Made by a program: the position numbers and the translations under genes. The notes beneath the pieces were generated by a model that did not search any database, had not been told where the DNA came from, and saw nothing but the letters and a program-made list of their open reading frames with translations. This document shows, in pieces, positions 33,055 through 56,799 of a stretch of 64,000 bases of DNA (position 1 is the first letter of the stretch; every line of letters starts with the position of its first letter). The stretch is from Tilletia caries (Eukaryota; Basidiomycota; Exobasidiomycetes; Tilletiales; Tilletiaceae), in contig JALUTQ010000037.1 in assembly GCA_032718865.1 (NCBI GenBank), positions 124,001 through 188,000 of the forward strand, given 5' to 3'.

Positions 33055-33249
33055 TAAGGTTGTCCCCGGAGTAACGCGGAGGGTTCCGCCTCCGCACTTC
33101 CAAATTCCGCCGGAATTTTGACTTTTTGAGGCGAGCTCCGCCTCCGCAGACTAAGACAGAGCTGAAAAAACCCAGCTCCACGTTCCGACGGAATTATGCA
33201 AAAGTTGAAATCCCAGCTCCGCGCTCCACGTTTTTCCTGTGCATTTTCA
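33055..33249 (-). mobile_element. Right-end half of a hAT-like CGGAG element
   Basis: Starts TAAGGTTGTCCCCGGAGT and runs closely parallel to the right end of the complete element at 54870-55654, in reverse orientation, as far as GCATTTTCA. There it stops abruptly. The complementary half, starting with the same nine bases, is at 56327-56799. In the complete copy the bases at this point are GCGTTTTCA, so the A is private to these two halves. That supports their being one element split by an insertion. Confidence 0.85.
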
Positions 33250-33529
33250 CCTGTGGCATGCATCATTTATTGCCCGCAGGGCATTAGAACAGGACTAATT
33301 GAATTAAGGACAGAGGGCTATAAGTTAGAGTTTCCCCCCCAACTACCCCAACTACACTCACGTGTGGGTTAACTGCTGCTCCGTCTGAACCTGACCGCCT
33401 GCACGCTTGACGTGGCAGCTGCATAGCAACTGACCAGGCCTGCCCAGCTCACGCGCTCACGCGCCAGACTGCCTGAGGTCGCGACGGCACGTCGCATCTT
33501 GCAAGGTCTTCACTTCCACCCGCTCCTCG

Positions 33530-34970
33530 ATGCAATGTGTCGACGTCGTCTGTGCCCTTTTACCCTTCTCCCGCACTTCCTTCCATCCTCTAACCTATTT
33601 CTTCCTTAGCGGCCGATTTCCGCTGCGGGTGTCCTCCGGCCTCCCTGCCCCGCAAATCAACCACGCATACATCTTCAGCAACCCAGGTTCGACAACAGTC
33701 TTTCGGTCACGTCCTCATTGGACGAGGCATGATTCATAACCCTTTCATCCGACATGCGCAACACTCAGAGCCACCAGATCAGGAACAGGTGCGTTGCTTT
33801 GCTGATGCCTGGGAAGCTTGGTCCTCACATTACGCATACTCACTGAGACACCGATACGGGATACCTTCATTCCTCTGCAGCATCGCCATCGACCGCATGT
33901 CCCTCATACGCATAGCAACATCATATGATCCTCGTTCCGGCGGACCTATTACCCACTCCGCGGAACGCAGCGTCCCCTCAACTATGTGGTACGTGGATTT
34001 GACTTCGTACCCCCTTCAGATGAAAGAGGTTAGAGGCTGACCGTCCCCTCGTCATCGTTTGCCCTGAAGACCTACGCCACGACACCTCAACCAGCCTTTC
34101 CGACTCCGGAGCCAGTCTGATCGTCAATCGATCACGCTCCATGAGGAACATGGTAGATTCATTCGCGTCGCTGCAGGCCATTCTTGGGCCACACCCACAT
34201 CCAGTCGGTATGCTCATGGACGCAGAACCAGTGATGCGGGCAGCGGGCCCAACAACATCCCCAAGGCTCCCGACGAATACTCGGGCATTAACGTCGAAGA
34301 CGGACTAAGCTCACCGTCCCCGACGCCGTACAACTTCTTCGCCCAGCAGAAGACCGCCGCCATCAACTTCCTGATCGGCGGGAACTTCCCCGCAAACCCA
34401 GACGCCATCAAGCAGGCACAGTTCCTATACGGCGCCGACCTCGGCTTCCACGCCTGGTACCACACGGTTCAGACCCCCCTCTCCAACGAAGACATTGTCG
34501 TCGAGCTCGGATGGACCATACAGATCACTACAATCTCAGCGGCGGCATCACCGCCGACTGGCGTCGTCCCCCGCAGGATGACGCCAACGCCCGTGTATTT
34601 TTAGTGGCCGGGGACTTTCTCGGACTCACTGCCATCATTTGAGATGCGGCAGGTCCATTGCCTCCGTCCACAAGGTCATCGACGACGCCGTCAAGCTGCC
34701 CAAACCCCAAGTTACCCGGTGTGAACCCGCTCTAGGACGATGTTACCACCTACTCCTTCAAGGCCTTTGTGGAGCACATCTGGGTCGCCATCAAGACCAA
34801 GGGATGGATCGCACAGCCTATCATAACCCCCCCCCCCCTCCCGGCCGCCAATGCGACCAAATCTACCTCACCCGTCACCTCCCAGACCAGCATGCTCAAG
34901 AGAGGCCGGATAACCATCTCTGGTACCGCCGGCCGGCGGTTCTGGCTCGGGATCATCGACAACCACTAGG
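33530..34970 (+). pseudogene. Decayed unidentified gene(s)
   Basis: Consecutive stretches read as plausible protein, but in changing frames and with stops between them. 33729-34040 reads from MIHNPFIRHAQHSEPPDQEQ. About 34040-34240 includes PLVIVCPEDLRHDTS. About 34236-34520 includes NNIPKAPDEYSGINVEDG and FLIGGNFPANPDAIKQAQF. About 34769-34968 ends with ISGTAGRRFWLGIIDNH. No standard intron signals join them. I recognise no family. The pattern suggests an old gene broken by indels. An alternative is several small exons that I have failed to splice. Confidence 0.4.
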
Positions 34971-35241
34971 GGCTCTAACTTGCGGCAGTACATCGACTAC
35001 CACCGGCAGTTCGTCAAGCAACCTCCGTGGCTCGGACACCTCCACGCTCCACCAGTGCCGCTTTGTCCCACAGAGTCAGGGACAGGATGGGGCGTCATTG
35101 TGCCGGTCCATTGTTACAACAGATCACCTCCCCTTACTCCCTTGCCTCACGTATGTATTTTCTTTCCCCCTTGTACCTATTACATCGACAGCCAGGAAAA
35201 AGAAAAAGCTAGCAGTTCAAAAATAGGAATGTGAAGAAAGA
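34971..35241. other. No feature recognised
   Basis: Short interval between the decayed plus-strand region and the minus-strand zinc-finger gene. The frame from about 34977 may be a further remnant of the same decayed gene. Confidence 0.3.
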
Positions 35242-36397
35242 TCAATTTGCCCCTCGGCGATGCCGACTGGTGGCTCCTAGCCTGACAATGTTGCCGTCAT
35301 CATCTACCTCTGGACGAGGAACCGCCTCTACTGAATGATTTAGGTTGTCTGAAAAGCAACCTGCACGACGCGGGTCGCCGTAGAGATGGACTCCTAGGTT
35401 CGACAATTGTTGTGAGGGTACGTATAGTTGAGTATGGCATATACGGCATTGCCATCGCTCTCGCGGGGTTACCGCACGCTTGGGTCCTGGCTTGGGTCCC
35501 CTTCGAACATCTCGCGTATCGAGACTCTCCCAGCCGAGGAAATGATAGTACTGCAAATATCCTAGGCAGGCACCGGTAAGGGCGTGACGAGCGTGGGCAC
35601 TCGGTGCGGTTTCGAGCATCTTCAAGACAGATTTGGGCGATAGGGGACCCCGGTAGTTTTGCGCCTGGCCGCCTCTTAGTTCTTCCTTGAGATCCCAGGT
35701 CGTTCCGCCCTTCCCGGTGTTGCCATCCCAAGGCTCGGCAACTATCTTCACTATGTAACTATGATAACTATATAGTTATAACTAATAGTGATAACTTGAC
35801 TATACTTTGGGCGGCGAAGCCGGCTAGAAAAAATAGTAGCTATAACTTTTTCAGATCGGCGCGGAGTAACTAATAGTTGAAATAGTTACAAAAAATTGCA
35901 CTTGGCTGATATAGCCACTAGATAGTCACTATGTAGTAGCTCCAGCTACTCCTAGTCACATATAGTCGCTATTTCAGTTACTCATAGCCACATATAGTGA
36001 CTATTTCACCCAAATATAACTTTTTGTGTTGGACAGGGGCTGGCTGAGACAGCTGCTGGATAGTTACTATATAGTAGCTTCAGTCACTTATAGCCACATA
36101 TAGTGACTATGTCGATCTCATTTTGTGCTGAACTAGTCACAGGTAGCTACTGGAAGTGACTATAGTGGCTATTTCAGCGAAAAAGACAACGAAAATTTTG
36201 CATGGCTGAAATAGTAACTATTAGTTTTTATAGTAGCTATATCTCACTTGACTATACTATTTCCCGCCGAGGTGACCACTCACTATAACTTGACTATACT
36301 ATTTCGCAGAAAAGTGGTAACTCTAGTAGCTTGCCGAGCCTTGTGCCATCCTCAGCGGTTTTGCTGTTCTGATCCGAGTACAAGATGGCACCGCGCC
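35242..36397 (-). pseudogene. Gene with BED-like zinc finger, interrupted by a hAT-like element
   Basis: The minus-strand frame from about 36397 reads WRGAILYSDQNSKTAEDG up to an element insertion, then continues after it (35728 downwards) with NTGKGGTTWDLKEEL, through APSAHARHALTGACL, to the stop at 35242. Skipping the element plus one copy of its 8-bp duplication keeps the frame, so the gene was open when hit. Near the C terminus WQCRICHTQLYVPSQQLSN and the following GVHLYGDPRRAGC have the spacing of a degenerate BED finger, a DNA-binding module common in hAT transposases and their relatives. No other domain is recognised. The start is not found. It may lie in or beyond the duplicated 503-bp block to the right. 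Confidence 0.5.
35729..36343. mobile_element. hAT-like non-autonomous element, TAGTTAC family
   Basis: Target duplication TGCCATCC (35721-35728 and 36344-36351). Terminal inverted repeat CAAGGCTCGGCAA at both ends, perfect over 13 bp and starting with YARNG. The interior is dominated by AACTATAGTT, TAGTCACTA, ATAGTAGC and similar motifs in both orientations. No coding capacity. Its TIR is close to that of the element at 43543-44130, so both probably used the same transposase. Confidence 0.92.
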
Positions 36398-36398
36398 A

Positions 36399-37400
36399 TT
36401 CCCCAGACTTTAGTATGGGGTTATATCTGCCCCTTAGATCTTACGGCCGAGACGAATGTTGCAACATCGCTCGAATAAAATCTTTCAAAACTTCTTGAAA
36501 TCTTCTCAAACTTCGCCTGGGTGTCCGTGTTCTAAGCATCCATCGACGCTCTCGATTTCTCCCAGTTTTATTTATGAAGATAGCAATTTGCTGTTCACAT
36601 GCCGTCCTTCCGCCGTTCCTTGCCCGTTTCTGTCTCTCTTTCACCTCCACTTTTCCCACGCCTTCGATAGCCGTAGTCAAAAGTCAAAACCCTCCGAGGA
36701 AATTCATAGCCATAGTCAAAACTCAAAACCCTCCGAGAATGTTGAAAGGTCTTCAACTTTTTGACGAACGCATTACGCAGCTACCAAGTACCAACTGCAC
36801 AACTTACTCCAGCGTTCACTAACCTTCAATCCTGACCTGCCTACAACTTACAAGTCGTGCCAGTGGTAAGTTGCTTGAGATACACGCAAACATCTACCAG
36901 GTTCCCCAGACTTTAGTATGGGGTTATATCTGCCCCTTAGATTTTTACGGCCGAGAAAAAGTGTTGCAACATCCCTCGAATGAAATTCTTCAAAACTCCT
37001 TTAAATCCTCTCAAACTTCGCCTGGGTGTCCGTGTTCTAAGCATCCATCGACGCTCTCGATTTCTCCCAGTTTTCTTTATGAAGACAGCAATTTGCTGTT
37101 CACATGCCGTCCTTCCGCCGTTCCTTGCCCGTTTCTGTCTCTCTTTCACCTCCACTTTTCTCACGCCTTCGATAGCCGTAGTCAAAAGTCAAAACCCTCC
37201 GAGGAAGTTCAAAGCCATAGTCAAAACTCAAAACCCTCCGAGAAAGTTGAAAGGTCTTCAACTTTTTGACGAACGCAGCTTACCAGCTACCAGCTGCCAA
37301 ACGTACTCCAGCGTTCATCAACCTTCAACCCTGACCTGCCTACAACTTACAAGTCGTGCCAGTCGTAAGTTGCTTGAGGTACACGCCTACATCGACCAGG
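36399..37400 (+). repeat. 503-bp tandem duplication (two units)
   Basis: Unit 1 is 36399-36901 and unit 2 is 36902-37400. Both start ttccccagactttagtatg and end with ctaccagg/cgaccagg, with about 5-10% differences and small indels. Each unit contains two short internal repeats of a gtcaaaa(g/c)tcaaaaccctccga motif (near 36675 and 36714, again near 37179 and 37218). Each unit has an open frame ending AERSSTF-like, but it is too short and low in complexity to call. Confidence 0.9.
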
Positions 37401-37420
37401 TGATGGTGCCCCAACATGCT

Positions 37421-37505
37421 ACTGACTACTGAGTACTGACTAGTGACTACTGACTACTGACTACTGAGTACTGACTACTGAGTACTGACTACTGACTAGG
37501 AGTAC
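37421..37505. repeat. CTACTGA heptamer minisatellite
   Basis: About eleven tandem 7-mers of tgactac/tgagtac type (tactgactactgagtactga), imperfect. Confidence 0.9.
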
Positions 37506-37756
37506 TGAGGTCTGACTGTCTGAGTGCTGACTGCTGACATTCCTACGTTCTTTTCTATTCCGATTTTATTCTTGCTGCTGGTAGATGGTAGTCCGGGGTC
37601 CTGAGCAGCTTCATTGCTTCTATTTTAATCTCCTACGTTCTACCGGACTTGGTCTTAGTTCTTACAATATTGACCCATTGTCATATGCATTCATGCTGTA
37701 TGCTGATTGCTGCATGCATCATCGCGGGCAGCCCGCAGCATTTGCTTATTTTCTGA

Positions 37757-38320
37757 CTAAGTGTTAGTCTCGAATCTTGATTGAGCAGGAGAGCTGCAAC
37801 TGACCTGGGCCATCGCAACAAGGTTCTGTCCTTGCGGAGTAGTCAGTCGTTGAGACTGTTGAATGCTGTGGGCTTGTGGCAATTGCTGGTTATGCAATCT
37901 CGTATGCTGGGGTGCATGTTGTCCTTGTTGCGCCTGTTGACGTGCCGGTTGCGCCTCGTAGTTGCGATACTGCTGCAATGGCTGCTGCTCTGCTTGCCGC
38001 CGGCTGGCTTGTGCGTGTTCCCAATCCCTCTCGCGTTGCTGGCGGCGATCGTCGTCCTGCCGCTGACGCTCCAACTGACGTCGAAAAGCAACCTGGCGTA
38101 TCTCTTCGTTTCGGCGAGCCACCTCTTCCTGTGCCCTGACTGCTTGTCCCTGCTGGAACAAATGCAGACGCTGTTGATCTTCGTGTTGCTGAGCTACGAG
38201 CGATTGCTGGTGCGCGTCGTGTTGTTGACGTTCCCAAAACGCATGGGCTGCTGCGAGAGCCTGATGTTGGGACAGTTCCCTCGATTCGCCGTTGTTATGA
38301 TGGATAATTTCTTCGCTCAT
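37757..38320 (-). CDS. Gln-rich coiled-coil protein, unidentified
   Basis: An uninterrupted minus-strand frame of 188 codons from MSEEIIHHNNGES (start chosen at 38320; an upstream in-frame ATG at 38374 is less convincing). Composition is extreme: Gln, Arg, Glu, Ala and His dominate, with heptad-like RRNEEIRQVAFRRQLERQRQ indicating a long amphipathic helix or coiled coil, followed by a Gln/His-rich tail. No catalytic or DNA-binding motif. In an interval otherwise made of mobile DNA it could be an accessory protein of an element or a fragment of a larger gene. It could also be low-complexity open frame without function. The consistent codon pattern makes coding more likely than not. Confidence 0.4.
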   Translation of the reverse strand: MSEEIIHHNNGESRELSQHQALAAAHAFWERQQHDAHQQSLVAQQHEDQQRLHLFQQGQAVRAQEEVARRNEEIRQVAFRRQLERQRQDDDRRQQRERDWEHAQASRRQAEQQPLQQYRNYEAQPARQQAQQGQHAPQHTRLHNQQLPQAHSIQQSQRLTTPQGQNLVAMAQVSCSSPAQSRFETNT

Positions 38321-38847: not shown

Positions 38848-38982
38848 TGTAACAAGCTCTCCATGACCACGCGACGGTCACCCTCCACATAGTTCCCACG
38901 CTTCTCATGCACATGTAAACGCACCCATGCCCCTGTTACTTCTGGAATAGAACCACAGACTTCATTCGCGTTAATCCTTACA
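38848..38982 (+). repeat. 5' LTR of the Ty3 element
   Basis: 135 bp, very short for an LTR. It starts TGTAACAAGCTC and ends AATCCTTACA, with TGTAA/TTACA terminal inverted repeats. One mismatch to the 3' copy. Confidence 0.97.
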
Positions 38983-38984
38983 AT

Positions 38985-38998
38985 TGGTAGCTCCGCTC
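38985..38998 (+). promoter_or_regulatory. Primer-binding site of the Ty3 element
   Basis: Two bases after the LTR the sequence reads TGGTAGCTCCGCTC. It complements the 3' end of initiator methionine tRNA (yeast-type PBS TGGTAGCGCCGCTC) with one mismatch, which may reflect this species' own tRNA. Confidence 0.65.
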
Positions 38999-39151
38999 TC
39001 AAGATCCCCTCCACGGTATACCTGGAACCCAACCTCTGACAGTGAGTTGGCTTCAGCCTTGATAGGCTCCTGAGGGAAGGCCATTCCTCAGGCTATCTGG
39101 CCTTGTCAAAGCAGTGCTGATCACACCGCTTGCTTTCTACTCGCAATAGAT

Positions 39152-42052
39152 ATGTCACAGCCATCCAAGGGGACCGCGAACCCCAACCCCAGGCCCGGTC
39201 GCACCGGAACGCGCAGCGTCAGCGCTACAGCAAGGCTCCCATCTGAAGGCGTCCCGCCCTCGAGTCTGGCTGTCCCTCGCGCGCCCATTCCAGCCACCGA
39301 GACCTCATCATCCCCGCCCGATCAGCGGGGGCACCAGAGGACCATCTCTGAGGAGCTTGTCGACACATCCATTGCTGTCGACCAGCCTCCACCACGATCG
39401 TCTCTCCGTCCGACCGCCGAGGATGAAGAGGACGAACCTCAGCAGTCGGGGTCCGAAGACTCCTCTCTGAGTGTGGGCCAAGTCCAGAGCATGCTGCGCA
39501 TCTCTGAAGCACGCGCATCGACCGACTTGCGCAAGGCCCTACAAGATGCCGACCGTCGACACCAGCAGCTCGCAGCCGACATCGAACGGCGGCACGACGA
39601 CAAGATGGATCGGATCATGACGCTGCTTGGCCAGTTGCAGCAAGCCCCGACAGTGCCATCCAGGACACCCAGTACTCCCACTGCTGGCGACCATCGTCGA
39701 GCACCTCGCGTCTCTGCCGCTTCGCACATGGTCTTTGGCGCAGAAGACACCCCGCGTGGTCCGATCCCGCCGCATCTCCGTTTCGCTGAGCCGGCCCCGC
39801 CAGCAGATCGAGCTCCTGCCGTAGGCGCAGCGATTCGCATGGAGGACGAGGAGGAAGAAGCAGAGCCGCGTCACAGCTCGCGCAGCTTCTTCCGCGCCAA
39901 GTCCAAAGACATCGGCACCTTCAACCCGGAGCAAGGCGACGACATCTACAGCTGGTGGTCCGGACTCGTCACCTACATGGAGTGCTCCCGGTACACGGAA
40001 GCAGAGATGTTCGCCGGCCTGCCCGGATGCTTCGAGGGCTCGTCAAGACACTGGTTCAACACGCTCAAGCCGCGCCCGAGGACTCTCGAGGAGCTCCGAG
40101 TTCGAGCTTTCTCGGCTTACGTTCGGAACGAGTCGCAGGTCTGGGAAGAGCTCGATGATCGCCGCTTCAAGCCGGAGAGCGAGCGACTCGACGTGTACCT
40201 TGCGGACAAGCTCAAGCTCATCTCCGAGCTGTACGTCTCTCGAGCTGTGAACCGTGGGAGCCTCAGCCTCGAACCTTTCTCTCTCGACTCGATAATGACC
40301 ACACAGACGGTCTCCGACGCCATCCAGACCGCTCATCAAGGTCTCCCTCCGGATTGGGCCATTCTTTTGGACTCGTCGCGGGAAGCAGCTCAGGACTGGA
40401 CGGACTACCGCACCAGACTCCTCGGCAAGGAGCGCGGAACAAGGACAGCAATTGCACTCCTCCAGCGTCCAGCTTCCTCCTCGGTTCCCTCCATCAACCC
40501 CCCTCGAGCTCGGCCTGCGAGAACTCACGCGGCAGCGCCGAGAGAGTTCGAAAACACTCAGTCGGCACGACCGCGTGCTCCTTCTATGAGCCCGGTTGAT
40601 GAGGAGACCCGTAGGCTGGATCGGGAGCAAGGACGGTGCTTTGCTTGTCACACGGCCGGGCACGCTAAGAGCAACTGTCCCAGTCGCGCTTCAACGGTTC
40701 GTGTCATCAAGCGCATCCTCGCCCGCCTGGAAGACGACAACGACGAGGAGGACGAACACTTCTCTATGGTGGTCCGACAGGTAGCCGTACTTCATGCTCG
40801 ACAACGGCACACCGATGCAGATTCGGCGTCGGAAACCGATCCAGAGGACAACGTCGCCCGAGTACGATACGCCCGCAGCGTGTCTGTACTCGCCGACGAG
40901 CCCTCGCCGCCCAGTTTCGGCATTTCTCCTCCCACAGAGCGCGACGTGGATCTCAAGGGGCACCGACATCGAGACGTTGTTGCCCACAAAGCAGCGGTGT
41001 ATCTGGGAAACGAAAACGAACGTCTCGAGCTACACGTTGATGGTGGATCCCCTCTGAGTATGATCACGCCGAGGGCCCTAAGGACCATTGCACCAGACGC
41101 TAAGATCTTACCACCGGAGCCTTTGAAAATACGAGGCTACAGAGGAGATGACTTTCAAAGGCCGTCCGGTGTTACTCTTCTCCCCGTCTCGTTTCCCACA
41201 GCCAACGGTGCCCCAGCCGTGACACATCACTTCGAGTTTCACGTGGTCGAAGAGTGTACAGGCGGTTGGATCCTCGGCGTGGACAACATGAAGGCCGACG
41301 GGATCGATGCCCTGTCCAAACGGGAGCTGCTCGTATTCGAGAGCCGGCCCGACGCAGAGGTTCGTCTCCTCCAGACCTCCTCCGAAGCCCGCCACGTCGG
41401 ATCGCCCAGCCGCCTCGTCTGCGCGAAGAAGGTGCGGATCGAACCACATACGGTTCGCGTCGTGGAGATCGACCCCGTGGCGAGCGACCTAGTGGTCCGC
41501 CCATGGTGGTTCTCCCATGAGGAGTCTCCAACAGGCTTCGTGAAGGTGCCATGCTGCCTCGTCGGTGTCGACACCCGGGGCGTCGAGGTCACCAACACGT
41601 CGGAAGCAGCTGTGGATCTGGAGGAAGGCGACGTATTGGGTGAGGTCGAGCCTCTTCTTCAGCAGCTGTGCGACTTCAGTGAGCTCGAAGATGAGGTCAA
41701 CAACCGACCGAAAGGAAGACTCGGTCATCAAAAGCGGGACCTCTCTCGCTCGCTCAAGAGCTGGCGTCGGTCAACTGTGGCCTCCCCTCCCTCGGAACTC
41801 AAAACGTCGCGACGTGTCACGTTCACTCGCACGGAGGACGACGGGAACGAAGTACTGCCCGAGATCGACATATCCACGCCTGAGGATCGCCAGCAGACCG
41901 TTCTCTGCTCCGCAGGGCTGACAGTCGATCAACGTTCCCGTTTGATGAAGGTGCTGGAATCCCACGCTGTCTGGCCAACACCGCTTCGTCCTCTCGGCCT
42001 ATACGAATATGGAGAGGTTTCGCTGCGTCTGCGCGAGGGACAAGATCATTGA
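39152..42052 (+). CDS. Gag and protease of the Ty3 element
   Basis: One 966-codon frame. The first third is low complexity (Pro, Ser, Arg, acidic runs), then a retrotransposon Gag domain (from DIGTFNPEQGDDIYSWWSGL through GCFEGSSRHWFNTLKP to about residue 430). A CCHC zinc knuckle CFACHTAGHAKSNC sits near residue 500. The aspartic protease follows: LHVDGGSPLSMITP (about residue 630). The triad reads Asp-Gly-Gly, not the usual Asp-Thr/Ser-Gly, which may weaken activity or be an alignment-level peculiarity. The frame ends in a single TGA (42050-42052). The same frame stays open beyond it into reverse transcriptase, so Gag-Pro and Pol are separated only by this codon. The start is the first ATG after the LTR leader giving this frame. 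Confidence 0.9.
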   Translation: MSQPSKGTANPNPRPGRTGTRSVSATARLPSEGVPPSSLAVPRAPIPATETSSSPPDQRGHQRTISEELVDTSIAVDQPPPRSSLRPTAEDEEDEPQQSGSEDSSLSVGQVQSMLRISEARASTDLRKALQDADRRHQQLAADIERRHDDKMDRIMTLLGQLQQAPTVPSRTPSTPTAGDHRRAPRVSAASHMVFGAEDTPRGPIPPHLRFAEPAPPADRAPAVGAAIRMEDEEEEAEPRHSSRSFFRAKSKDIGTFNPEQGDDIYSWWSGLVTYMECSRYTEAEMFAGLPGCFEGSSRHWFNTLKPRPRTLEELRVRAFSAYVRNESQVWEELDDRRFKPESERLDVYLADKLKLISELYVSRAVNRGSLSLEPFSLDSIMTTQTVSDAIQTAHQGLPPDWAILLDSSREAAQDWTDYRTRLLGKERGTRTAIALLQRPASSSVPSINPPRARPARTHAAAPREFENTQSARPRAPSMSPVDEETRRLDREQGRCFACHTAGHAKSNCPSRASTVRVIKRILARLEDDNDEEDEHFSMVVRQVAVLHARQRHTDADSASETDPEDNVARVRYARSVSVLADEPSPPSFGISPPTERDVDLKGHRHRDVVAHKAAVYLGNENERLELHVDGGSPLSMITPRALRTIAPDAKILPPEPLKIRGYRGDDFQRPSGVTLLPVSFPTANGAPAVTHHFEFHVVEECTGGWILGVDNMKADGIDALSKRELLVFESRPDAEVRLLQTSSEARHVGSPSRLVCAKKVRIEPHTVRVVEIDPVASDLVVRPWWFSHEESPTGFVKVPCCLVGVDTRGVEVTNTSEAAVDLEEGDVLGEVEPLLQQLCDFSELEDEVNNRPKGRLGHQKRDLSRSLKSWRRSTVASPPSELKTSRRVTFTRTEDDGNEVLPEIDISTPEDRQQTVLCSAGLTVDQRSRLMKVLESHAVWPTPLRPLGLYEYGEVSLRLREGQDH

Positions 42053-42659
42053 ACACACACGGAACCACCGCGCCGTACATCCCCCGCGCAGAAGGATGTC
42101 ATCGACGACACCTTGAGGGAGCACGACGACCTTGGCATATCAGAGCCATCTCAAGGTTCCTATGCTTCGGGCGTGGTGTTGGTGCAACAGAGGGACAAGA
42201 TCAGATTCTGCAACGACTATCGACCGCTCAACAAAGTTACTGTTGACGATTACTATGCCATGCCAACGGTTGACGCGATATTTGATCAGCTGGGCCAATC
42301 GAAAGTGTTCACAGTCGTCGACGCCAACAAGGGGTATTACCAGTTCCTGCTCAGTAAGGACTCGAGAGATCTGACGGGCTTCATCACTTTCAGAGGTCTA
42401 CGTCGATACCGCCGCATGCCTTTTGGACTCAAGCAAGCCCCGAGTTGGTTCCAGCGAGCAATGGACAGGATTCTGGGTGCAGCTCGGTGGCAGTTTGCTT
42501 TGGCATATTTGGACGACGTAGTGGTGTACTCGAACACCTTTGAGGAACACCTGATCCATCTCGATACAGTGTTGGCCGCTCTGGAACGCGCAGGACTCAC
42601 CATCTCGCCTTCTAAATGTCGCTTCGCGTTCGAGTCGGTTGCGCTTCTGGGATACAAGG

Positions 42660-43356
42660 TAAGGATCTTCCCGGAGTAGGCCCCGGAGTAGGATTCCCCG
42701 GAGCTCCGCGGACTCCGGGGGACGCTCTGCACGGGTACGGAGCACGGAGCGAGATTTGAGCATTTTTTACTAGCTTTAGATTTGCGGAGTTACTCCGCGA
42801 AGGTAAGCCTGCAACTCCCCGGAGGACGGAGTGAGTTTGCCTGCATTGTCAAGGAAGCCCCGGAGTACGGAGCAGACCTCGGAGTCCGACGGAGCTCCGG
42901 GGATGGCAAAGTGGGTCACGTGATGGCCAAAACTAAGTCACGTGACCGGTTTTTGAGGGATTTCTCCGCCGAATCAGGTCGAAATACTGTGTATTTCAGC
43001 TTTTTTGGGGCAGTAAACCCTTGGAAAGAAATGATATAGACTTCTAAAGCTGCGATTGAACTGTTTCGATGAGATTTGAACTTCTCCTGAGCCCATATTG
43101 GACTCATTTCATGACACCCCGGAGTACCCCGGAGTCCGCGGAGCTATTTTGCGGAGCACGGAGTCCGCCTGTGAAAAATATACGGAGCACGGAGTAGATT
43201 CTTGCGCGCAACCGCAACTTCGACGGAGCACGGAGTGCTCGCCAGCTGATCACCAGAAATTTTGCGGAGCGCGGAGCTGGCTAGAGCTCAGACGGAGCTG
43301 AGCGGAGCGTCGCCCCGGAGTCCGGGCTCCGGGGATCTACTCCGGGAAGATCCTTA
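42660..43356. mobile_element. hAT-like CGGAG element in the RT gene (TAAGGATCTTCC subfamily)
   Basis: Target duplication ATACAAGG (42652-42659 and 43357-43364). Perfect 19-bp terminal inverted repeat TAAGGATCTTCCCGGAGTA, a YARNG start. The 697-bp interior is packed with GGAGTACGGAGC, CGGAGTCCG and similar. A unique central part (about 42920-43090) includes two GTCACGTGA-like palindromes. No transposase. A second copy starts at 63554. Confidence 0.95.
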
Positions 43357-46700: not shown

Positions 46701-48286
46701 ATGAACTCTGCTCACTCCTCCCCATCTGAGTCCGACCTGTCCTACCCCTCTCCTCCATCTTCGCCCACGTTACACATCCTCGCTCCGCGTTTCCGCCCTC
46801 TCGCCCGTCCGTTACGCTTTATCGACCAGGCATCGGTTCCGACTCCGATCGGCTTCGTAGACAATGCGGGGGCTATGTTTGCCACAATCTCGGTCGAGGA
46901 AGCTGAGGAAGGCGAAGTGTATTCCGATGATTCCTCCAACTCCACCCTCACCCGTGATAGCGACGTCGAAGGCGATGGTTGCGCTCAGCCTGAGGACGCA
47001 TCCTCCGATGGCACGGATTCCGGTGCCTCGATCGCATCTTTCTTCAACGACGCGACGACTTCGGAGGGAACGGATGAACAGCCCAACACTGACGAATCGG
47101 AAATGGAGTCTGGGTCGGAGGACGGCGGTGACACCGTAGACGCCAAAGCTGAGCTTCGGAGAGCTTTCGACGATCCTACCGGCCCCTTTGTCCCCGATCA
47201 GGATGCTGATCTCGATGAGGAGGGCGATCCTCAGACGGAAGGTGTCGATAGCGTGGCAAGTGACGTGGATAATGGCCCTACGTCCTCGCAGCGTTCCACC
47301 ATCACCATCGAGACCAATCCCGAGACCGACGACTCGGACTACTCCGATGACGACCTTTCCTCTGAGCTCAGCGACGTTCCCCCTGAGCTTCCTTCACCGT
47401 TGAAGAGCCATGAACCAGCGTCCGCCATTGATGAGGACGAGGAGGACGAATTGCTGGATGACGATGAGCCGACTGATCATCCAGCGGGCGGGAAAGCGGT
47501 CGTAGCTGAGCCAGTGGAGCATGTGGAGCTGCAGCATGCGTCGCAGCGCGAGCACGGGACACCAAACAGCCATATTCTCCGCGGTGCCGAGGTGGCCGCA
47601 TTCCTGCCACGAACGCCGAGTCCAAAGCACGTGTTTCGTCGTGCCTCCGATGTTTCGCCGCACTGCAACCCACTCGCGCGGCTCCTGGTCCCATCGCAAC
47701 GGGCTCATGATAGCAACGCAGCATCAGTGCCGTGGGCAATGCCTATTGGATCATCCTCGTCGGAGCAAGCGACCTCCGGTTTGTCTCCAGCAGACCCAAC
47801 CAGTACCTTGGTGGCCGGACCGACGACAAGCCTTCATGATCCAGCCGCTGACACAGGCCCGAAGAGTTTGACCTCGGCCTGTTCCGCCTCCGCTGCGCCG
47901 TCGTCCAGGGTCGACGAGGATTCGACAAGGGCTGGAGAACGTCTCTCAACCGTACCCTCGACAAGTGTTACGTCGTCTCCAGGTTTTGACGTCGTTGGCC
48001 AGCATGTCGCCGCTGATGACCCGGAGCCTGCCAGCAAGAAGCGACGTATCGACAAAGTGATTTGCTATGTGAGCAACTTATATGCAAGGATTTGCTTTGA
48101 TATGCTTGCTTAGCTCTCTCTTCTGCCCAGTGGATCCAAGACGGGGTCAAGGTTCGCATGTATGAGTCCGGGGACTTCGAAGGATTCTTTCCTTTACACG
48201 GCTGGATCAGACCGCCTATCTTCAAGCCCAAGACACCGTTGAGTCCTCCGATTGGCGCTCTGGCATCTGGCAGGGGCGGCGTATGA
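46701..48286 (+). CDS. Acidic low-complexity protein, unidentified
   Basis: Exons 46701-48056 and 48131-48286 (74-bp intron, gtgatt to cccag), about 504 residues. The first 100 residues are Ser/Pro-rich. Residues about 70-270 are strongly acidic with Asp/Glu/Ser runs (DIDLSSELSDVPPELPSP-like composition, EDEEDELLDDDEPTDHP). A basic KKRRID sits just before the intron, a possible nuclear signal. Exon 2 adds an unusually ordered-looking end (WIQDGVKVRMYESGDFEGFF, then HGWIRPPIFKPKTPLSPP). No known domain. Acidic nuclear proteins of this kind often bind histones or act as regulators, but nothing proves that. The Ty3 element sits only 32 bp upstream of the start codon, so normal transcription is probably disturbed. 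It converges on the KDZ transposase and could be its accessory gene. Confidence 0.6.
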
Positions 48287-49077: not shown

Positions 49078-51922
49078 TCAAGTGGCAAGCCTCGCCACTT
49101 GAGCCTCCAGTTCGACGTCGATGTCTACTTCGACCTCGTCAGCTTGGTCGCTTGACAATGTGTTGTGGTCGATGGGAACGCCAGAAGGGAAAAGGATGTC
49201 TTCTGCCGGTGCGCTCCCGAGCCAGTAGTTCTTGAGAGCTGTGGCGCGGGTATGCTCGTCGCGATACACAGAATGTGTGTGTCGCAGCTCTCCTGTGCGC
49301 ATGATTCGATTGTCAATCCATGCCAACGCTGAGGAGCGCTCGTGTTCCAGGCGTTCGTTCTCTTCCACTGCCCGAAGAAGCTCTTCGAAGGCATTGATAG
49401 CCTTGGCCGTGGATGGATTGGTCCACCAAGGCAAGTCGTCCAGGGAAGGGTTGTCCGCACAGGCCCAATGCTCCACCAGTTTGAACTGTTCTCCTTTGAG
49501 AAGAGTATCCCATTCCAACACCGGAGGATACCGTCCGAGAGCTTGAAAGTGCGTGGAGAGTGCAGTGTTGAGCCGTTTCATGAGTTTTCTGGCGCTGACT
49601 GATTCGGTTTTGAGCGAGAGTTGCAGTCTTACCGTGGTCTTGGTGCCGCGGGAGGTGTTTGCGGGTCGATCGCGCACAAGAGCTGAAAGCAGCCGAATCT
49701 CAGACATGACGCGAAGCAGGCTTTGGGAGATTAGACTGACTACGGTGATGGTTGAGTTGGCTCCGTCCGTCGAAGTGTTTGCGCTGGGAAGTGGAAGCTG
49801 AATGAGTCAAAAGCGCTCGATGGACATGTGTCTGACGACGGAGAGCGTCTCGACAGGGATGCTGGGGAAGAGAGAGGGGGGACGCCAGTTGGCAATGTTG
49901 TCGTTGGCCTGTGGTGGATGTAATCCGTCGTAACCCGGTCGGAATTGACGAGGAACGCAAGAAACATCGAACTTTATATGTGAGAATCACGCGGGCTTCC
50001 TCGATCACTTGGTTGATTTTGGAACGCTTTGATCGAATGAACTTGAAGAGATTCATGCGTCGCTCGGTCGCAAGATGAAGACAGCGCTCTTCAAGGCTGA
50101 AGCGGCGATCCCCGGCGCGCATGCTACGGGTGGAGGTGATGAGATTGCGCAAGCCCGACCATACACCTTCCATACCCTCCCCGTCAGTGAGTCCATAGCC
50201 CAGCACGTTTCTTGGGCTGTATCGGACCTGCCACGAATAGGTATGTCCATAAACATGGAATAGTGGAACCGTCCATGTAATCTTCAGGGAGGGCCCAATC
50301 AGATTGCGAACACGTGTGCTTGGGTCGAAGCGGCAGCCAAGATCATACACGACCCCTAGATGGCGAAGTTGGGGTATTGCCTCCGCCAAGGCTCCTATCA
50401 GCGCGGTGGCGTAAAAGTGTCTCTCTCCGGGAGTGGTTATGTCGCAGAGGACAAGAGGAATGTCGTTCCTGCAGCACACTCCCATGACCCCGTTGACGTC
50501 GAAAGGGGTTCGGGCGTTGTGTGCCGAAGCGTGGTCGATGGCCCTAATACTGGCAACGCATGACTCCTTGTCGGGATCGTTCCCTAGGGCGTTTTGCCAT
50601 GCCCTCTCTGCGGCAATGGACTGTCGAGCGGAAAGGAAGCGCCGCGGTGGCATGGGCTGAGCATTTATGACGTCTGCGCGCCGTCGCCGCTTCTGTGTGA
50701 AGTTGCCGTCGATAGCGACGATCACCTGAGGAGAGTCGCGATCGAGTCCGAATGTGGGAGCGGGCCAAGTGCCTACGCGAGGATGGATGAGATCGGCTGC
50801 ATCGTGAGGAAGCTGAGATCGCAAGGTTTGGCTGTCAAGGCGCGTTGGGGTGGCAAACGCCTGAAAACAGGCAGGGCAACTCTCGATGAGATCGTACAAG
50901 GTAAGGTGCAGATCGTCATCCACCAACGATGGACGCGAGGGCGTCCATCGAGCGACCTCCGTAGCCATTTGCTGTGCATATCGTTCGACAACGGTCATCC
51001 ACGTCACTGCGCTGCTCAACTGCCTTCGCAGGACGTCACCCGTCGTCAGGGCGCTGTACGATCGTTGAAATGTGGGTTCGAGGCGCATCAGAGTCTGCAC
51101 CGTCGCAGCCATGTTGTTGGCTGGCATGCCGACCTGATTAAGTAGAGTTTGGTATAGTCGGAGCAACCGAATGGTGAAAGCAACCCTCGGCGCAGAGGGA
51201 GAGGACGGAAAAAAACCAATGCTGATGAGGCTCTTGATCAGCGAGCATGTTCGGCCAGCAACGACCATGGGTTTGCCGATGTCGTACACATGAATGATGC
51301 TCAAGCTATGCCTTGGCGCATCAAGAGGGCAGTCGCAGCTGATGACAGGCAGTGCTGGGAACCGGGGCGTCGGATCGGTATCGTACGCGGTTTTGAAGAT
51401 GACGTTACTCGCTTGATGCCACGCGGCAAAACGGCGACGGGTGGTCTCTTTGTTCGAGCGCGGGAGAGGGCAACGACGTGGATTGAAGTTTTGGACGAGT
51501 ATTGGGTTCCCATGGATATCGACGGCGCCTTCGTCGCTGTCGTATTCATCACTTGGATCAGACTGAGGGTATCGTGATCCTGATCCATCATTGCCGTAGT
51601 CCTCCACAAAGCCAAATCCAGGGCCGTCACCGTAATCATCGTTGTTGCCATCGTATAGGTCCATGAACTCTTGGACCTGATGGCTGGCGCGTTGAAGAGC
51701 GTATGGATCGGAGAAGGTGGGGAGATCATTATGCGCCATGTTCATCGCTGGCTCGGAAATGGTAGAGCCGTAGAGCTGCTCACTGTCGGCAGTGTAGCAG
51801 TCGGCGCCGTCTGCGTCAAGCTCATCGCGTCGGCGGCGTCGTGTGAGGCGGCGCGGCTTGCGAGCTGGAATCATGTGGGAAGTGGGCTGTGGGACTGTGT
51901 AGGAGGAAGGAAGAACCGGCAA
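49078..51922 (-). CDS. KDZ-superfamily (Kyakuja-Dileera-Zisupton) transposase
   Basis: A large DNA transposase of the KDZ class known in basidiomycetes. Exon 1 (about 51922-50000) starts with a basic region (ARKPRRLTRRRRRD, about residues 19-32) and an acidic linker. A Cys/His-containing region follows (VISCDCPLDAPRHSL to CSLIKSL and GFFPSSPSAPRVAF), equivalent to the CxC module. The catalytic part has VIVAIDGNFTQKRRRR (about residue 399), HNARTPFDVNGVMGVCCRND, GVVYDLGCRFD (about 524) and FHVYGHTYSWQVRYSP, then GYGLTDGEGMEGVWSGLRN (about 585). These acidic residues in DGNF, YDLGCRFD and DGEGME are the family's characteristic positions. A long intron (about 50000-49727) leads to a 210-residue C-terminal exon ending at 49078. 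No stop interrupts exon 1, so an active enzyme is possible. The start is the first in-frame ATG, and an extra upstream exon near 52045 cannot be excluded. Confidence 0.82.
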
Positions 51923-52679
51923 CCTATCAGAAATCAGATCTGGGTGCCGAGTCGTAGATGGAGAGACCGGATGCGTCTTACGGAGGTGCAGACGTACTCA
52001 CGTACACTTTGTAGTCTGGAGAGGCGCTGGGAGTGGGACTGAAATGGCATGGTGGTGCTGAAAGAGGACTGGCCGATGTGGAAAGATGGCAAATGGCGAT
52101 CGACGTCATGAGGGAGACAGTCGCAGGTCACGTGTGCGACACATGATTCATAGTGGGTCAACGGTCAACGGTCAAAGCCGAAGGTAAGACGATAACTCGA
52201 AATATTCATGGACGGATGCTATAAATAATGTATAGCGGGCGTTGACTCAACCTCTGCGTCCCATTGGAGAAAGAGAGCCGAGAGGTCGTGTAGCGGAGGA
52301 GAGGGGCCATCACCACCAACCGCTCGGAGTACGGCTTAACGAATGCAGCGTTGTTTGGTGGCCTCGGCGAGGTTGAGAATGACGTTCGCGTCGTAGAGGT
52401 TGGCCATAGGGGTTGGATGAAGACACGATGGCCAGATAGGCAGGCAAAGGGTTCCGGGGGGGATAGCTTGACGTAAAGAGAGCAAGACAGCAGCCCGTCT
52501 GGCCGGTGAGAGTGCATCATTGGGAACTCGGTGGTGCGATGACGTGGGTGGTGGGGTGGAGCAGTGTCGCCGAGATGGCGGAAGAAGGCACCAGAGGACG
52601 TGGATTGTTGCCGACCAGAGCCGGTGATGGCGGAACCGAAGTGCCAAAGCAGACTACCGAGCGGATAAGCGCGTGGCCC
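51923..52679. other. Upstream of the KDZ gene; no gene recognised
   Basis: Probably the KDZ promoter. A 24-codon minus-strand frame (52410-52336, MANLYDANVILNLAEATKQR) has good codon character and may be the start of a lost gene, but it is too short to call. A ggtcaac direct repeat occurs at 52155-52172. Confidence 0.4.
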
Positions 52680-52999
52680 TCATCCCACTCGCCTGCCGCG
52701 CCAGTATATCAGCGCTAACATCCGCGAACAACTGATTATTCTGAGCACCCTACTGTCCCTGCTGGCCTCCCGCCCCGGATCCGCCGTCGTCGCCTCTGCC
52801 CCCGGACGATGATGGAATTCGAGGCGGCGTGCTGGTGGGCTAGGTGGAAGAGCCACTCCGTATCGAGTCGGGCGGGGGAGAGGACGTACTCCCACCTGGC
52901 GGCCATACTACTCCTCGATATCGATGCACTCCCTTGTCCCCCACCGCCACTGCCACCTATGATATTCTGCATCATGCCATCCACAAGACCATCCATGCC

Positions 53000-53995
53000 T
53001 TGCTCGTCCGCAGAGGACGAGGATGACGAGGCTGAGATGACGCCCGATGACGTCTAGGAGGAATAGCATGTGTGTTGCGAGGTTCTTGCGGATGTGGGGA
53101 TGTAGGGCGGAGAGGGTTGAGTTGAGGAAGCCGAGGGAGGGTGCGAGGGCACGGGCGAAGGTGTTGCGGAGGTAGGCTGCGAGTGTGGCTGATACTTCGG
53201 AGTGATGATTTTGGGAGCTGCCGTATTGGTTGCTTGAGGCGTCCAGGACAGAGGTCAGGAAGTGGTATTCGACCTATTCCGCAATCAAGGGACAGGAGGT
53301 CATGCGTCAGCCTTTCGTCACAGCATGTATGGTGGGTGATCTGACTGACCTCTGCCATCTCCAGCCAGGCTCCGAGCCAATTTGCAACGCCAGCGCTACC
53401 GCGCTCATAGATAGCTTTATCGGTCCGATTGGACATCCCTCCAAACATGGCCGACCCGCTGACAACAGTGGCGCCCGAGCCGATCCCAGAGCCCATCATT
53501 CTACCGCCCATACTCAACAATCTTCCCAACCGCATACTCGCGCACGCGGGAGCCCAAGAACTTGGCCGAGCCGAGCAGATACTCCGCCCTGACTTCTGCG
53601 AGCTGGGCGATGGCGTATGCGAGGTGTGACGTGTTCGGGTTGGCCGGGTGCGCGGGTAAGGAGGCGAGGAAGATGAGCAAGCGTCGGATCTGCGCTGCTG
53701 TGTGGTGGTTCGGCGTGGGGAGGGGGATGCCGAGGGGTATGGAGTCCGCCGGGTCGATGCGGTGGGACTGGTCGCGGAGGAGGGGGAGGGTCTCGAGGTG
53801 TGCGAAGCCGAGGGTGTCCTCGATGTGGTGGGTGCCATGGTTGTCCGCGCCCCCTGCTGATGCGCCCCCCAGCGAGCAGCAGACTCTTGTCGGTGCTGTC
53901 CGTCGTGTTGTCGCTGCCATTGGCCGTGCTTCCGTCCAGCTCTCGTCTGAAGGTGGTGCTCGGGTTCGGAGAGTTTCGAGCCGAGTTCCGAACGT
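53000..53995 (-). pseudogene. Gene fragment of unknown family (third part of a chimera)
   Basis: Reads well in one frame from about 53830 (HHIEDTLGFAHLETLPLLRD) through PTPNHHTAAQIRRLLIFLAS and AIAQLAEVRAEYLLGSAKFL to a Gly-rich segment and an intron-like gtcagt donor near 53350. It continues near 53280-53000 with AAYLRNTFARALAPSLGFLN and HPHIRKNLATHMLFLLDVIG. The sequence looks like a conserved helical protein, but I cannot name it. It starts immediately after the dynamin-like piece without its own ATG, so I treat it as a captured or rearranged fragment. Confidence 0.5.
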
Positions 53996-54009
53996 CTCGT
54001 GAACGTGGC

Positions 54010-54395
54010 TGTGCAGATCGTGGCGATATCTACATTGGCGGGGTTCACAGCGAAGATGATGCTGCAGAGGAGAGCAAAAAGGGTGAGGCAGGGTTCAGGA
54101 ACAAGATGTGCGTGATGCGTGGCGAGCAGAACGTACCAATCTGGCTTGGAGATGTAGTCCGTGACAAGACTGCGAATCTGGCGCTCGATGTCCGATGGCT
54201 GACAGGACGATCACCGAATGGGATCTGGAGGGCAGATACATGGAGTCAGCTCGGGTTTGATTTGACAGCTTGAAAGGGAGGATGATATGGTGCTGACCTT
54301 GGTGATACCCGGCAGATCGACGAGGGCGGGATTGAGGACATTGGGGCTGTAGACCTTGAGATGGATGGGCAACTTGGAGACGCCCTTGTTCTCGC
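54010..54395 (-). pseudogene. Dynamin/Vps1-like GTPase fragment (second part of a chimera)
   Basis: Three intron-separated pieces of the GTPase domain of a dynamin-related protein of the Vps1 type. They are [20 protein letters not shown] with LPGITK (the G3 motif DLPGITK), then SDIERQIRSLVTDYISKPD, then IIFAVNPANVDIAT. The introns (about 54296-54190 and 54133-54046) have normal signals. The P-loop, the G4 TKxD motif and everything after are missing, and the coding sense is lost within a few codons of VDIAT. Family identity is certain from the motif order. Confidence 0.82.
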
Positions 54396-54399
54396 GACG

Positions 54400-54733
54400 T
54401 GAGGTGGGATAGGACGGCGGGGTTGGAGAAGTCGAGGAGGTAGAGGGAGTCATTGGCCGACGGGGTGGAGACGAGACTGTCCTGTCTGCCGAAGAGGGCG
54501 AGACCGTTCCGGGAAAAAGAGGCGAGGGTAAGGAAGAACGCTGTGGCTGGGCTGGCGAGGGACTGCCATGGCGGGGCCGAGAGTGGGATGGGGGTGGTCA
54601 GGTTGAGGAAGAGGAGGTCGGAAGAGTCTGTGGCGAACGGGTATGTGTATCCTGCGCTTGCGCTTGCGGTCGCCTTGCCGCCGTGGAGGAGGAGGACGCC
54701 GTCAAGTATCTGGATGCTTTGCCCATCGCCCAT
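54400..54733 (-). pseudogene. Kelch-like N-terminal fragment (first part of a chimera)
   Basis: From an ATG at 54733 the frame reads MGDGQSIQILDGVLLLHGGK, then [20 protein letters not shown] and [20 protein letters not shown] before YLLDFSNP. The spacing of the hydrophobic [16 protein letters not shown] and LYLLD strands resembles a beta-propeller (Kelch) blade pair. It runs into the dynamin-like piece near 54395 in another frame, with no intron to explain the change. I infer a joined fragment. Confidence 0.5.
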
Positions 54734-54869
54734 CGCTGTGTGTTGTACTGGTTGAGTGGGTGAGTGAATGAGTGAGCGCTGAGTGAGTGAGTGGCTGCAA
54801 ATTTTCAAACCAAAATTGATTTTCTCACATGGGTGAAAATTTTCTCCACATGAATTTCGGGTCGCTTTA

Positions 54870-55654
54870 TAAGGTTGTCCCCGGAGTTGACGCGGAGCTG
54901 GGGTTTTGCGGACTCCGCACTCCTCCGACGGAGGGCTCCGCCGGAGGCGGAGCGCGGAGCTCACTTTGGGGGAATTTTTAATCATAAAAAAGCACGGACT
55001 CCGCCTGGAGGACTCCGCCGGAATTTACGCGGAGCGCGGAGCCCAATCCTGGGCCCACTGTCCAAAAAGTGCGGAGCGCGGAGTCGTCAAAATAGCGTGA
55101 AAATTCCGGCGGAACTTCCGCGGAATTCCGACGGAGCTGTGAGGTCACGTGATAGCCGAAAATAAGGGTCACGTGACCTCATTTTGGGTGCGCTCCGCCG
55201 GAATTCCGTCCAAGTTCCGCGGAAATGTGCGGAATTCCGAGAAAATAGGCATCGTCGAGACACGCGCAGGAAATAAAACAGGCATCATCATCCGTTGAGA
55301 ACCTCAAAATAGCACTGGAGTCAATACCGCAACAATGTCGGATGCTAAATGTATAGCTCCGATTGTACTAGAGTCATTGAAAGCAACTTATACCACCACT
55401 GCGCTCCGACGGAATTCTGCGGAATTCCGAGCTCCGCGCACACGGAGCACGGAGGAGCATTATGAAAACGCACAGAAAAAACGCGGAGCGCGGAGCTGGG
55501 ATTTCAACTTTTGTATAATTCCGTCGGAACGCGGAGCTGGTTTTTTTCAGCTCTGTCTTCTGCGGAGGCGGAGCTCGCCTCAAAAAGTCAAAATTCCGGC
55601 GGAATTTGGAAGTGCGGAGGCGGAGCCCTCCGCGTTACTCCGGGGACAACCTTA
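54870..55654 (+). mobile_element. Complete hAT-like CGGAG element (TAAGGTTGTCCC subfamily)
   Basis: Target duplication TCGCTTTA (54862-54869 and 55655-55662). Perfect 18-bp terminal inverted repeat TAAGGTTGTCCCCGGAGT. Length 785 bp. The interior is dense in GCGGAGC, CGGAATTCCG and GGACTCCG, with a unique central part around 55280-55380 that is conserved in the other copies. Also contains GTCACGTGA near 55144 and 55170. No coding capacity. It is the reference copy for the halves at 33055 and 56327 and for 60108-61050. Confidence 0.96.
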
Positions 55655-55740
55655 TCGCTTTATACGGAGGCAAGCATTTCTCAATCCAACCATTGTTTTG
55701 AGCTCCTCACGATGATCTGGACAAAAAAGTCACACCCTGG

Positions 55741-55915
55741 GAGTAGGAAGGTGTTGTGGTCGAAAGGAAAGACGGCCGAAGCCGTCTAAAAGGATGGGCC
55801 GGAGCCCTTGGGTGAGCCGAAGCTCATGGTTGGGCCGAAGCCCGTGCACGTTAAACGTGCACTGACCACAACACTCCTACCCCCTCCCCCTACCCTATCC
55901 TCGAAAGGATCAATG
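55741..55915 (-). ncRNA. Array of UUCG-loop hairpins in a long stem, candidate structured RNA
   Basis: On the minus strand, in order: ATCCT-TTCG-AGGAT (about 55900-55913), a long arm GTGTTGTGGTC (complement of 55864-55874), GTGCACG-TTTAA-CGTGCAC, GGGC-TTCG-GCCC, GAGC-TTCG-GCTC, GGGC-TCCG-GCCC and GACGGC-TTCG-GCCGTC (55771-55786), then the other long arm GACCACAACAC (55751-55761). Four loops have the exceptionally stable cUUCGg form. The outer arms extend with gggagtagga/tcctaccccc. The array lies directly downstream of the tRNA-like sequence on the same strand. Structure is read from the sequence. Transcription is inferred. Confidence 0.55.
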
Positions 55916-55988
55916 CCTGGAGCGCGGATCGAACCCGCGACGTATCAAACAGAGAGCAGTTGATCAGACCGCTCAACTATGTGACACG
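55915..55988 (-). other. tRNA-like sequence with Pol III A and B boxes
   Basis: On the minus strand an A-box-like TAGTTGAGCGG (55969-55979) and a B box GGTTCGATCC (55926-55935, within the perfect T stem CGCGG/CCGCG) lie at tRNA spacing. The D stem also pairs. The acceptor ends do not pair and the anticodon stem is broken, so it is not a functional tRNA. It may be the Pol III promoter head of a SINE-like element whose body is the hairpin array. Confidence 0.55.
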
Positions 55989-56326
55989 ATTTGTTGTATT
56001 TTCGTTCCAGTGCTTGATGTTGACTGAGGCGCTCAATCGCAAGCAAGCAAGCAAGGAGCGTGCGCTCCGCGCCTACGCGGACCGCGGCGTGTCGCGCGTC
56101 GCGCACTGCCACGTGGTTCGGCCAGTGGCATGGCGGATTGCGGTCACGTGCCATGTGGCTGTTTGGACTTCTGGGAGATGGGACTTGGGAGGGGGACTCT
56201 CCGCCGTCCCTGTTGGAGGTTGCTTGGGCCCCGTAGTTAGAGTTTTAAGCCCAACAAGGCCAGCAAGGCTAAATCCAATTGATCTATCTGTAGCCTATCA
56301 GGTGAAACTTGCCGTAACCAAGGTTG
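55989..56326. other. Right end of the 23-kb interval, no gene
   Basis: Contains CACGTGGC/GCCACGTG-like palindromes (56110-56155), and an 11-bp AGTTAGAGTTT that also occurs near the left end of the interval (about 33326). Otherwise nothing recognised. Confidence 0.4.
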
Positions 56327-56799
56327 GCATTTTCATAATGCTCCTCAGTCCTCCGTGCTCCGTGTGTGCGGAGCTCGGAATTCCGCGGAATTCCGTCGGA
56401 GCGCAGTGATGGTATAAACTATAAGTTGCTCTCAGAATCACTCTAACACAATCAGAGCTATACGTTCACCGTCCGACATTGTTGCGGTATTGACTCCAGT
56501 CCTATTTTGAAGTTGTCAACGGATGATGATGCCTGTTTTGTCTCCTGCGCGTGTCTCGACGATGCCTATTTTCTCGGAATTCCGCACATTTCCGCGGAAC
56601 TTTTGCGGAATTCCGGCGGAGCGCACCCACAGTGAGGTCACGTGACCCCTCGCGTAAATTCCGGCGGAGTCCTCCAGGCGGACTCCGTGCTTTTTTAAGA
56701 TCGAAAAAATCTCAAAAGTGAGCTCCGCGCTCCGCCTCCGTCGGAGGAGTACGGAGTCCGCAAAACCCCAGCTCCGCGTCAACTCCGGGGACAACCTTA
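56327..56799 (-). mobile_element. Left-end half of a hAT-like CGGAG element
   Basis: Runs from GCATTTTCATAATGC to the terminal ACTCCGGGGACAACCTTA, the inverse of the left two thirds of the reference copy. Its flank CATGCTGG (56800-56807) differs by one base from the flank CATCCTGG of the other half at 33047-33054. Together the halves make a full element. Confidence 0.85.

Follow-up and report, generated by a model that had tools for sequence, protein, structure and literature searches.

Introduction

The Kyakuja elements are a branch of the KDZ transposons described from Agaricomycotina, and the accessible part of the source reports for two families (e.g. Kyakuja-1_LB and -2_LB) 7-bp duplications, CA...TG ends and no terminal inverted repeat (TIR) (PMC12730594). 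KDZ1, KDZ2 and KDZ3 of Cryptococcus neoformans are given, in the portion of the report available, as elements of approximately 9-11 kb that have KDZ and CxC1 domains, are bounded by TIRs of 139-241 bp and duplicate 8 bp of target in the case of KDZ1 and 4-8 bp in that of KDZ2 and KDZ3 (PMC12810828). Two further systems are known for carrying pieces of genes, namely the Pack-TYPE transposons of plants, non-autonomous carriers of host gene fragments according to the excerpt at hand (PMC8903248), and the Helitrons of Pleurotus, which capture gene fragments according to a source likewise available in part (PMC4289320). Here we analyse a 64,000-nucleotide stretch of Tilletia caries DNA (the window; C32:124001-188000 of a 38.1 Mb genome in 40 contigs), in which positions 33248-56326 probably constitute a single KDZ-superfamily DNA transposon with Kyakuja-like ends, swollen by later insertions and carrying pieces of host genes. 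The Kyakuja label refers to the features of the ends, from which we infer membership proper. Our literature search turned up no paper on KDZ elements in Tilletia, and the only case of gene capture by KDZ elements met in the literature searched, some of it accessible in part, was that of TET/JBP genes.

Results

One outermost insertion and its ends

The original prediction held that a 23-kb block had entered a hAT-like element as a single outermost insertion, and both borders bear this out. The nine bases GCATTTTCA are present twice, at 33241-33249 and 56327-56335, and removal of 33248-56326 makes a hAT-type miniature inverted-repeat transposable element (MITE) whole again, its halves lying on the minus strand at 33055-33249 and 56327-56799 by repeat comparison within the window and by alignment of the joined sequence. 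When joined at GCATTTTCA by script, the halves can be aligned over their whole length with the complete copy (54870-55654), leaving several small gaps and one of approximately 130 bases. A search for MITE copies gave 40 scored matches, eight of which were made into loci (the window and seven others, L002-L008); the complete copy and all seven further copies read GCGTTTTCA, then TAATGCTCC, with G where the window borders have A. Since this A stands at both borders and is private among the copies read, it indicates a target duplication, as had been proposed. The outer flanks of the MITE, CATCCTGG (33047-33054) and CATGCTGG (56800-56807), are identical at 7 of 8 positions as claimed and form its own outer 8-bp duplication. 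The Harbinger-like gene said to surround the MITE fared less evenly: the frame GRDIL-GMSASTF does run through, by eye, once one copy of the 8-bp repeat is omitted, whereas Pfam gave no match to the 62-amino-acid flank outside the MITE, leaving the Harbinger label without confirmation. The structural evidence is the sequence of one assembly.

The nine shared bases fit a duplication of 9, 8 or 7 bp. Our best reading is a 7-bp duplication, GCATTTT (33241-33247 on the left and 56327-56333 on the right by border comparison), followed by the CA of an element that would start CACCTGTGG and end CCAAGGTTG, with 5'-CA...TG-3' ends. We chose this reading because the CA then belongs to the element, as it does at a second left end found on contig C4. 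Between 7 and 9 bp a chance CA is needed either way in the DNA alone, so that the published end type decides. The absence of a convincing TIR, already remarked upon in the original prediction, holds: whether 30, 100 or 300 bases are taken, one end aligns with the other no better than shuffled sequence does.

The second left end likewise starts with the CA and shows 98% identity over 33248-33506 and 33691-34515; the C4 left block continues at 94% over 34527-35728 and with 56 identical bases at 36344-36399. Its insertion point, C4:808804, falls within a repeat that is gag-like by eye and has no Pfam match. A search with the C4 flank gave 14 matches, and in all 11 loci read besides C4 (two further C4 matches lie outside these 11) the repeat continues past the break.

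The KDZ transposase gene

Inside 33248-56326, between the target duplications, sits a KDZ transposase gene (49078-51997, minus strand, which we take as the strand of the element), recognised by Pfam and by a protein match with one intron. Its presence had been predicted, and the KDZ transposase domain (PF18758) is found at E 9.7e-42, with 143.5 bits against a cut-off of 26.6, making the KDZ enzyme the likely mover of the block; the N-terminal CxC1 cysteine cluster (PF18802) scores 26.4 bits, just below its cut-off of 26.9. The single intron follows from the T. caries protein P0006, which aligns in two segments, 51874-49982 and 49800-49081. P0006 is also the closest protein found (100% after rounding, over 82% of the query), together with P0007 and P0008 of Tilletia laevis (98%), and 9 of the 11 related proteins found are from Tilletia, the rest from Coprinopsis and Mycena. 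Across ten aligned proteins D430 and E607 are fully conserved and D552 almost so. In an AlphaFold2 model of the transposase made with 10 sequences, whose mean predicted local distance difference test score was 47.8, these three residues are placed close to the ends of strands and the start of a helix, as DDE enzymes have them, an indication we judged too weak to count. A Pfam profile scan for transposase, captain and Rep types covered 10 open reading frames (ORFs) of the window, some small ORFs lying outside it, and among these 10 KDZ is the only DDE transposase, the Gypsy integrase aside. From the family and the ends, mobilisation by the element's own KDZ transposase would be expected.

A putative zinc-finger-like partner ORF

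In the left block lies a zinc-finger-like accessory ORF represented by its C-terminal part (35245-36404, minus strand), which matches a longer ORF at C4:804790-805551 with 99% identity over 35245-35727 and 86% over 36342-36404; Pfam gives it no match. Searching the genome with the longer C4 version returned 25 matches, which were manually merged into 21 loci, and a KDZ search returned 41 matches, similarly merged into 22 loci. Thirteen of the 21 ORF loci, the window included, lie at most 15 kb from one of the KDZ loci, where 0.38 would be expected if they were placed at random. Near-equal scores and spacing mark the pairs on C20, C33 (two) and C7 as possible recent copies; there are hence fewer independent pairs than 13, yet the excess is still very large. 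Orientation relative to the KDZ gene is variable, spacing ranges from 1 to 13 kb, and eight loci, C4:804790 among them, have no KDZ gene nearby. We read this ORF as a putative partner gene of Tilletia KDZ elements. Because the left block thus holds an ORF that accompanies KDZ genes, the left end and the transposase probably belong together, and the ORF offers a concrete lead on how KDZ ends devoid of TIRs are recognised.

Host gene fragments and other cargo

The cargo foreseen in the original prediction is present, and the host gene fragments within it, like the second left end, are additions to what had been noted. Pieces of at least four genes match other contigs, their likely sources: a chitin/polysaccharide deacetylase-like fragment (34197-34923, plus strand; 71-74% to C13:261349-262086), an Exo70-like fragment (52673-53994, minus strand; 91% and 85% to C30:1140606-1142379), two pieces of a dynamin gene (54143-54399, minus strand; 85-95% to C1:991181-991360 and C3:1158899-1159062) and a kelch-repeat fragment (54422-54706, minus strand; 79% to C5:1128837-1129115). 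The Exo70-like label comes from a weak Pfam match of the source gene, below cut-off, and from inspection by eye. As this piece retains one intron of its source, it was captured at the DNA level. Two proteins predicted from T. laevis, P0007 and P0008, align first with the Exo70-like fragment (53448-52959 and 53436-53028, respectively) and then with the KDZ gene; they span the join between the two, and the arrangement is therefore not peculiar to one assembly.

A plausible account of these fragments, if on balance the poorer one, is that they were brought by Helitrons or small Pack-type elements nested in a KDZ element that itself captured nothing. Helitron-like 5' ends are seen by eye at 36399 and 36902 and an inverted-repeat arm at 54753-54868 borders the fragment block, but the deacetylase-like piece is common to both insertions that begin at this left end (the window and C4), and the best-scoring KDZ relative, at C4:366916, also has pieces from multiple loci beside its gene. 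Helitrons do capture gene fragments in fungi, as stated in the accessible part of the source (PMC4289320).

Of the remaining genes, an acidic ORF of two exons (46701-48283, plus strand) occurs once in the genome at both the DNA and protein level. Homologues come from T. laevis (100% over 91%), Tilletia controversa (92% over 91%, with a further partial protein at 100% over 56%) and Tilletia indica (45% over 48%); the ORF may be an old gene of the element or a captured whole gene. A Gln-rich ORF (37757-38319, minus strand) has no Pfam match, and the BED-like gene formerly proposed within the block likewise finds no support for its label in Pfam.

Other KDZ loci in the genome

Three further KDZ loci, at none of which element ends were placed, were read for gene fragments. 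At C4:366916, the best-scoring KDZ gene after that of the window (53% identical, with a possible partner ORF at C4:356041), the 3.5 kb beside the gene on the partner-ORF side is a patchwork of pieces with 91-98% identity to C22, C3 (two places) and C39 and 76-95% to C36, C9 and C1; one short stretch has many matches, and some pieces may be repeats rather than single host genes. Here Pfam detects, below cut-off, parts of a DEAD-box helicase and a lipase; on the opposite flank of the gene it detects a BRO1 piece. The stretch that separates the partner ORF from the KDZ gene at C3:1293106 contains a Tfb2 N-terminal piece and a histone piece, the latter possibly a normal gene, and at C25:541328 two ORFs tested gave no convincing match. 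Fragments are thus present near other KDZ genes, not yet inside elements there. The 11,598-bp contig C20 carries a KDZ and partner-ORF pair that, in comparison with C33:1316928-1331220, shares 378 identical bases past the partner ORF before the two diverge; the contig could represent either a haplotype or a recently made copy.

Later insertions and other repeats

The insertion was originally called giant. The interval is indeed 23 kb, but its size is largely due to later growth by three insertions, each with its own target duplication: a 7.8-kb Gypsy-type long terminal repeat (LTR) retrotransposon (38848-46668, plus strand; duplication CTCCT; LTRs of 135 bp, 99.3% identical), a 615-bp MITE (35729-36343; 8-bp duplication TGCCATCC), for which the C4 left block represents the empty site, and the complete hAT-type MITE copy (54870-55654, plus strand; duplication TCGCTTTA). 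Of the 23,079 bp, approximately 13.8 kb are left once the three insertions have been subtracted together with their duplications. Two small repeats lie inside the Gypsy element, at 42658-43357, which recurs at 63552-63909, and at 43542-44133, which matches an insert in one copy of the gag-like repeat flanking the C4 insertion (L026).

A high-copy repeat, present as two truncated 5' parts (36399-37758, plus strand), and a repeat with tRNA-like boxes by eye (55663-56000, minus strand; second copy at C35:639774-640114, 94%) may be later additions too; no tRNA or Rfam feature reached threshold in the window. The high-copy repeat occurs at 39 or more further places (loci L055-L058 were read), begins TCCCCAGACTTTAGTATGGGG, is preceded by AT in three of four copies read and has a Helitron-like 5' end by eye; a solo LTR was considered for it and dropped once these four copies had been read. 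The arm at 54753-54868 belongs to a unit found as inverted pairs approximately 2 kb apart, with arms exceeding 100 bp, on C28 (1262684-1264761) and C32 (276738-278811; L045, L046 and L048); the C28 unit encloses a piece resembling, by eye, an aspartate aminotransferase fragment, and may be a Pack-type element. On C4 the left block contains 1.5 kb (C4:807722-806224) missing from the window, where the deacetylase-like match is uninterrupted, so that this looks like a gain, and directly past the partner ORF are 58-bp inverted arms approximately 2 kb apart (C4:804325-802352).

Discussion

Weighing the evidence

We put the probability that 33248-56326 is one KDZ transposon with Kyakuja-like ends at approximately 0.78, and several observations weigh against it. 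The exact match to CA...TG ends with a 7-bp duplication comes from one complete insertion, whose nine shared bases also fit 8 or 9 bp. The search for genomic copies sharing the ends, suggested in the original prediction, recovered the left CA on C4 and no second copy of the right end anywhere in the genome. Neither a right end nor the continuation of the interrupted repeat, sought by the 7-mer and by the continuing half of the repeat, is present in the 40 kb read at C4, indicating that the C4 copy is truncated or rearranged. Of four copies of the gag-like repeat compared closely, one stays similar for approximately six bases into the start of the element, which we take as chance. A profile search returned nine proteins (eight from Tilletia, one from Mycena), none labelled Kyakuja, Dileera or Zisupton. 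One other core residue, equal in the nine other aligned proteins, is altered in the window copy, which may therefore be weak or dead; KDZ copies with this residue unaltered exist. Finally, no convincing CA...TG pair with a 7-bp duplication was seen at the other KDZ loci examined: a scan of L038, L039 and L040 gave 2, 2 and 8 pairs versus 3.7, 3.8 and 3.6 in shuffles, the count at L040 somewhat exceeding its control and none of the pairs resembling the window ends, and no such partner was found in the 4.5 kb read left of the gene on C20. These missing pairs warn against generalising the end type in haste, and it is they and the altered residue that hold our estimate where it stands.

A nine-bp duplication is usual for Mutator-like elements (MULEs), and the shared stretch is nine bases long, with 7 over 9 not forced by the DNA alone. 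It is nonetheless unlikely that another superfamily with 8-9-bp duplications (e.g. a TIR-less MULE) moved the block with the KDZ gene as a passenger, as no other DDE transposase than KDZ, setting aside the Gypsy integrase, is found in the 10 ORFs scanned, the left block holds an ORF that travels with KDZ genes, and CA...TG ends without a TIR fit Kyakuja as far as the accessible text describes it (PMC12730594). An assembly error joining unrelated pieces is very improbable even in a region rich in repeats, since a misjoin would not be expected to leave an exact duplication that bears a private base at both borders, and the T. laevis predicted proteins span the join between fragment and KDZ gene.

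On the reading of a single KDZ transposon, a DDE-type KDZ transposase, perhaps aided by the zinc-finger-like protein, would cut at 5'-CA...TG-3' ends lacking TIRs and paste the element into the hAT-type MITE, copying 7 bp of target. Host gene fragments, at least one with an intron, would have been placed between the ends by DNA-level events before or between jumps, and the route, as we infer it, may have been repair or end-skipping in earlier jumps, or nested Helitron or inverted-repeat elements. After insertion the Gypsy element, the MITE and the hAT copy would have landed inside, expanding the element from approximately 13.8 kb to 23.1 kb.

More tentatively, and at somewhat less than even odds, it is possible that a Tilletia KDZ lineage composed of transposase and zinc-finger-like partner repeatedly gathers and moves unlinked fragments of host genes, and that the acidic gene, found nowhere else in the genome, depends on the element. 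Such a lineage would give Basidiomycota a gene-shuffling vehicle, an autonomous and TIR-less counterpart to the Pack-TYPE elements known from plants. In plants the capture of genes by cut-and-paste elements has been studied well; if KDZ elements do shuffle gene pieces in bunt fungi, annotation there contains chimeras, of which P0007 and P0008 of T. laevis look like examples, and new fusion genes would have a source that can be tested.

Comparison with known systems

The Starships of Ascomycota are large cargo-bearing fungal elements moved by a tyrosine recombinase captain, and the window element resembles them as a large fungal element with cargo; we rejected a Starship on finding no such captain in the 10 ORFs scanned. 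Pack-TYPE elements, which are bounded by TIRs, and the Helitrons of Pleurotus resemble it in carrying host gene fragments. Helitrons leave no target duplication and carry a Rep/helicase gene, whereas the window element has a target duplication, and no Rep/helicase gene was detected in the 10 ORFs scanned. TIRs are a feature of Zisupton and are lacking here; the nine shared bases also admit the 8-bp duplication of Zisupton and Dileera. With KDZ1-3 of C. neoformans the element has in common the KDZ domain (CxC1 falling just below cut-off here) and a size of approximately 13.8 kb that is not far from 9-11 kb; it differs in having no TIRs.

The closest likeness is to Kyakuja, with which, according to the part of the source available, it shares a KDZ-class transposase, the absence of a TIR and, on our best reading of the nine shared bases, CA...TG ends and a 7-bp duplication (PMC12730594). 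The suggestion that this might be a type of element not yet described accordingly falls, these end features being known for Kyakuja in the same accessible text (PMC12730594). No TET/JBP gene was matched in the window ORFs scanned, small ORFs and introns lying outside the scan. The window element differs from Kyakuja in its several host gene fragments and in its zinc-finger-like partner ORF. It also resides in Tilletia (Ustilaginomycotina), while Kyakuja is described from Agaricomycotina in the portion consulted (PMC12730594). The end type is thus already known, and the novelty is the cargo of deacetylase, Exo70-like, dynamin and kelch fragments.

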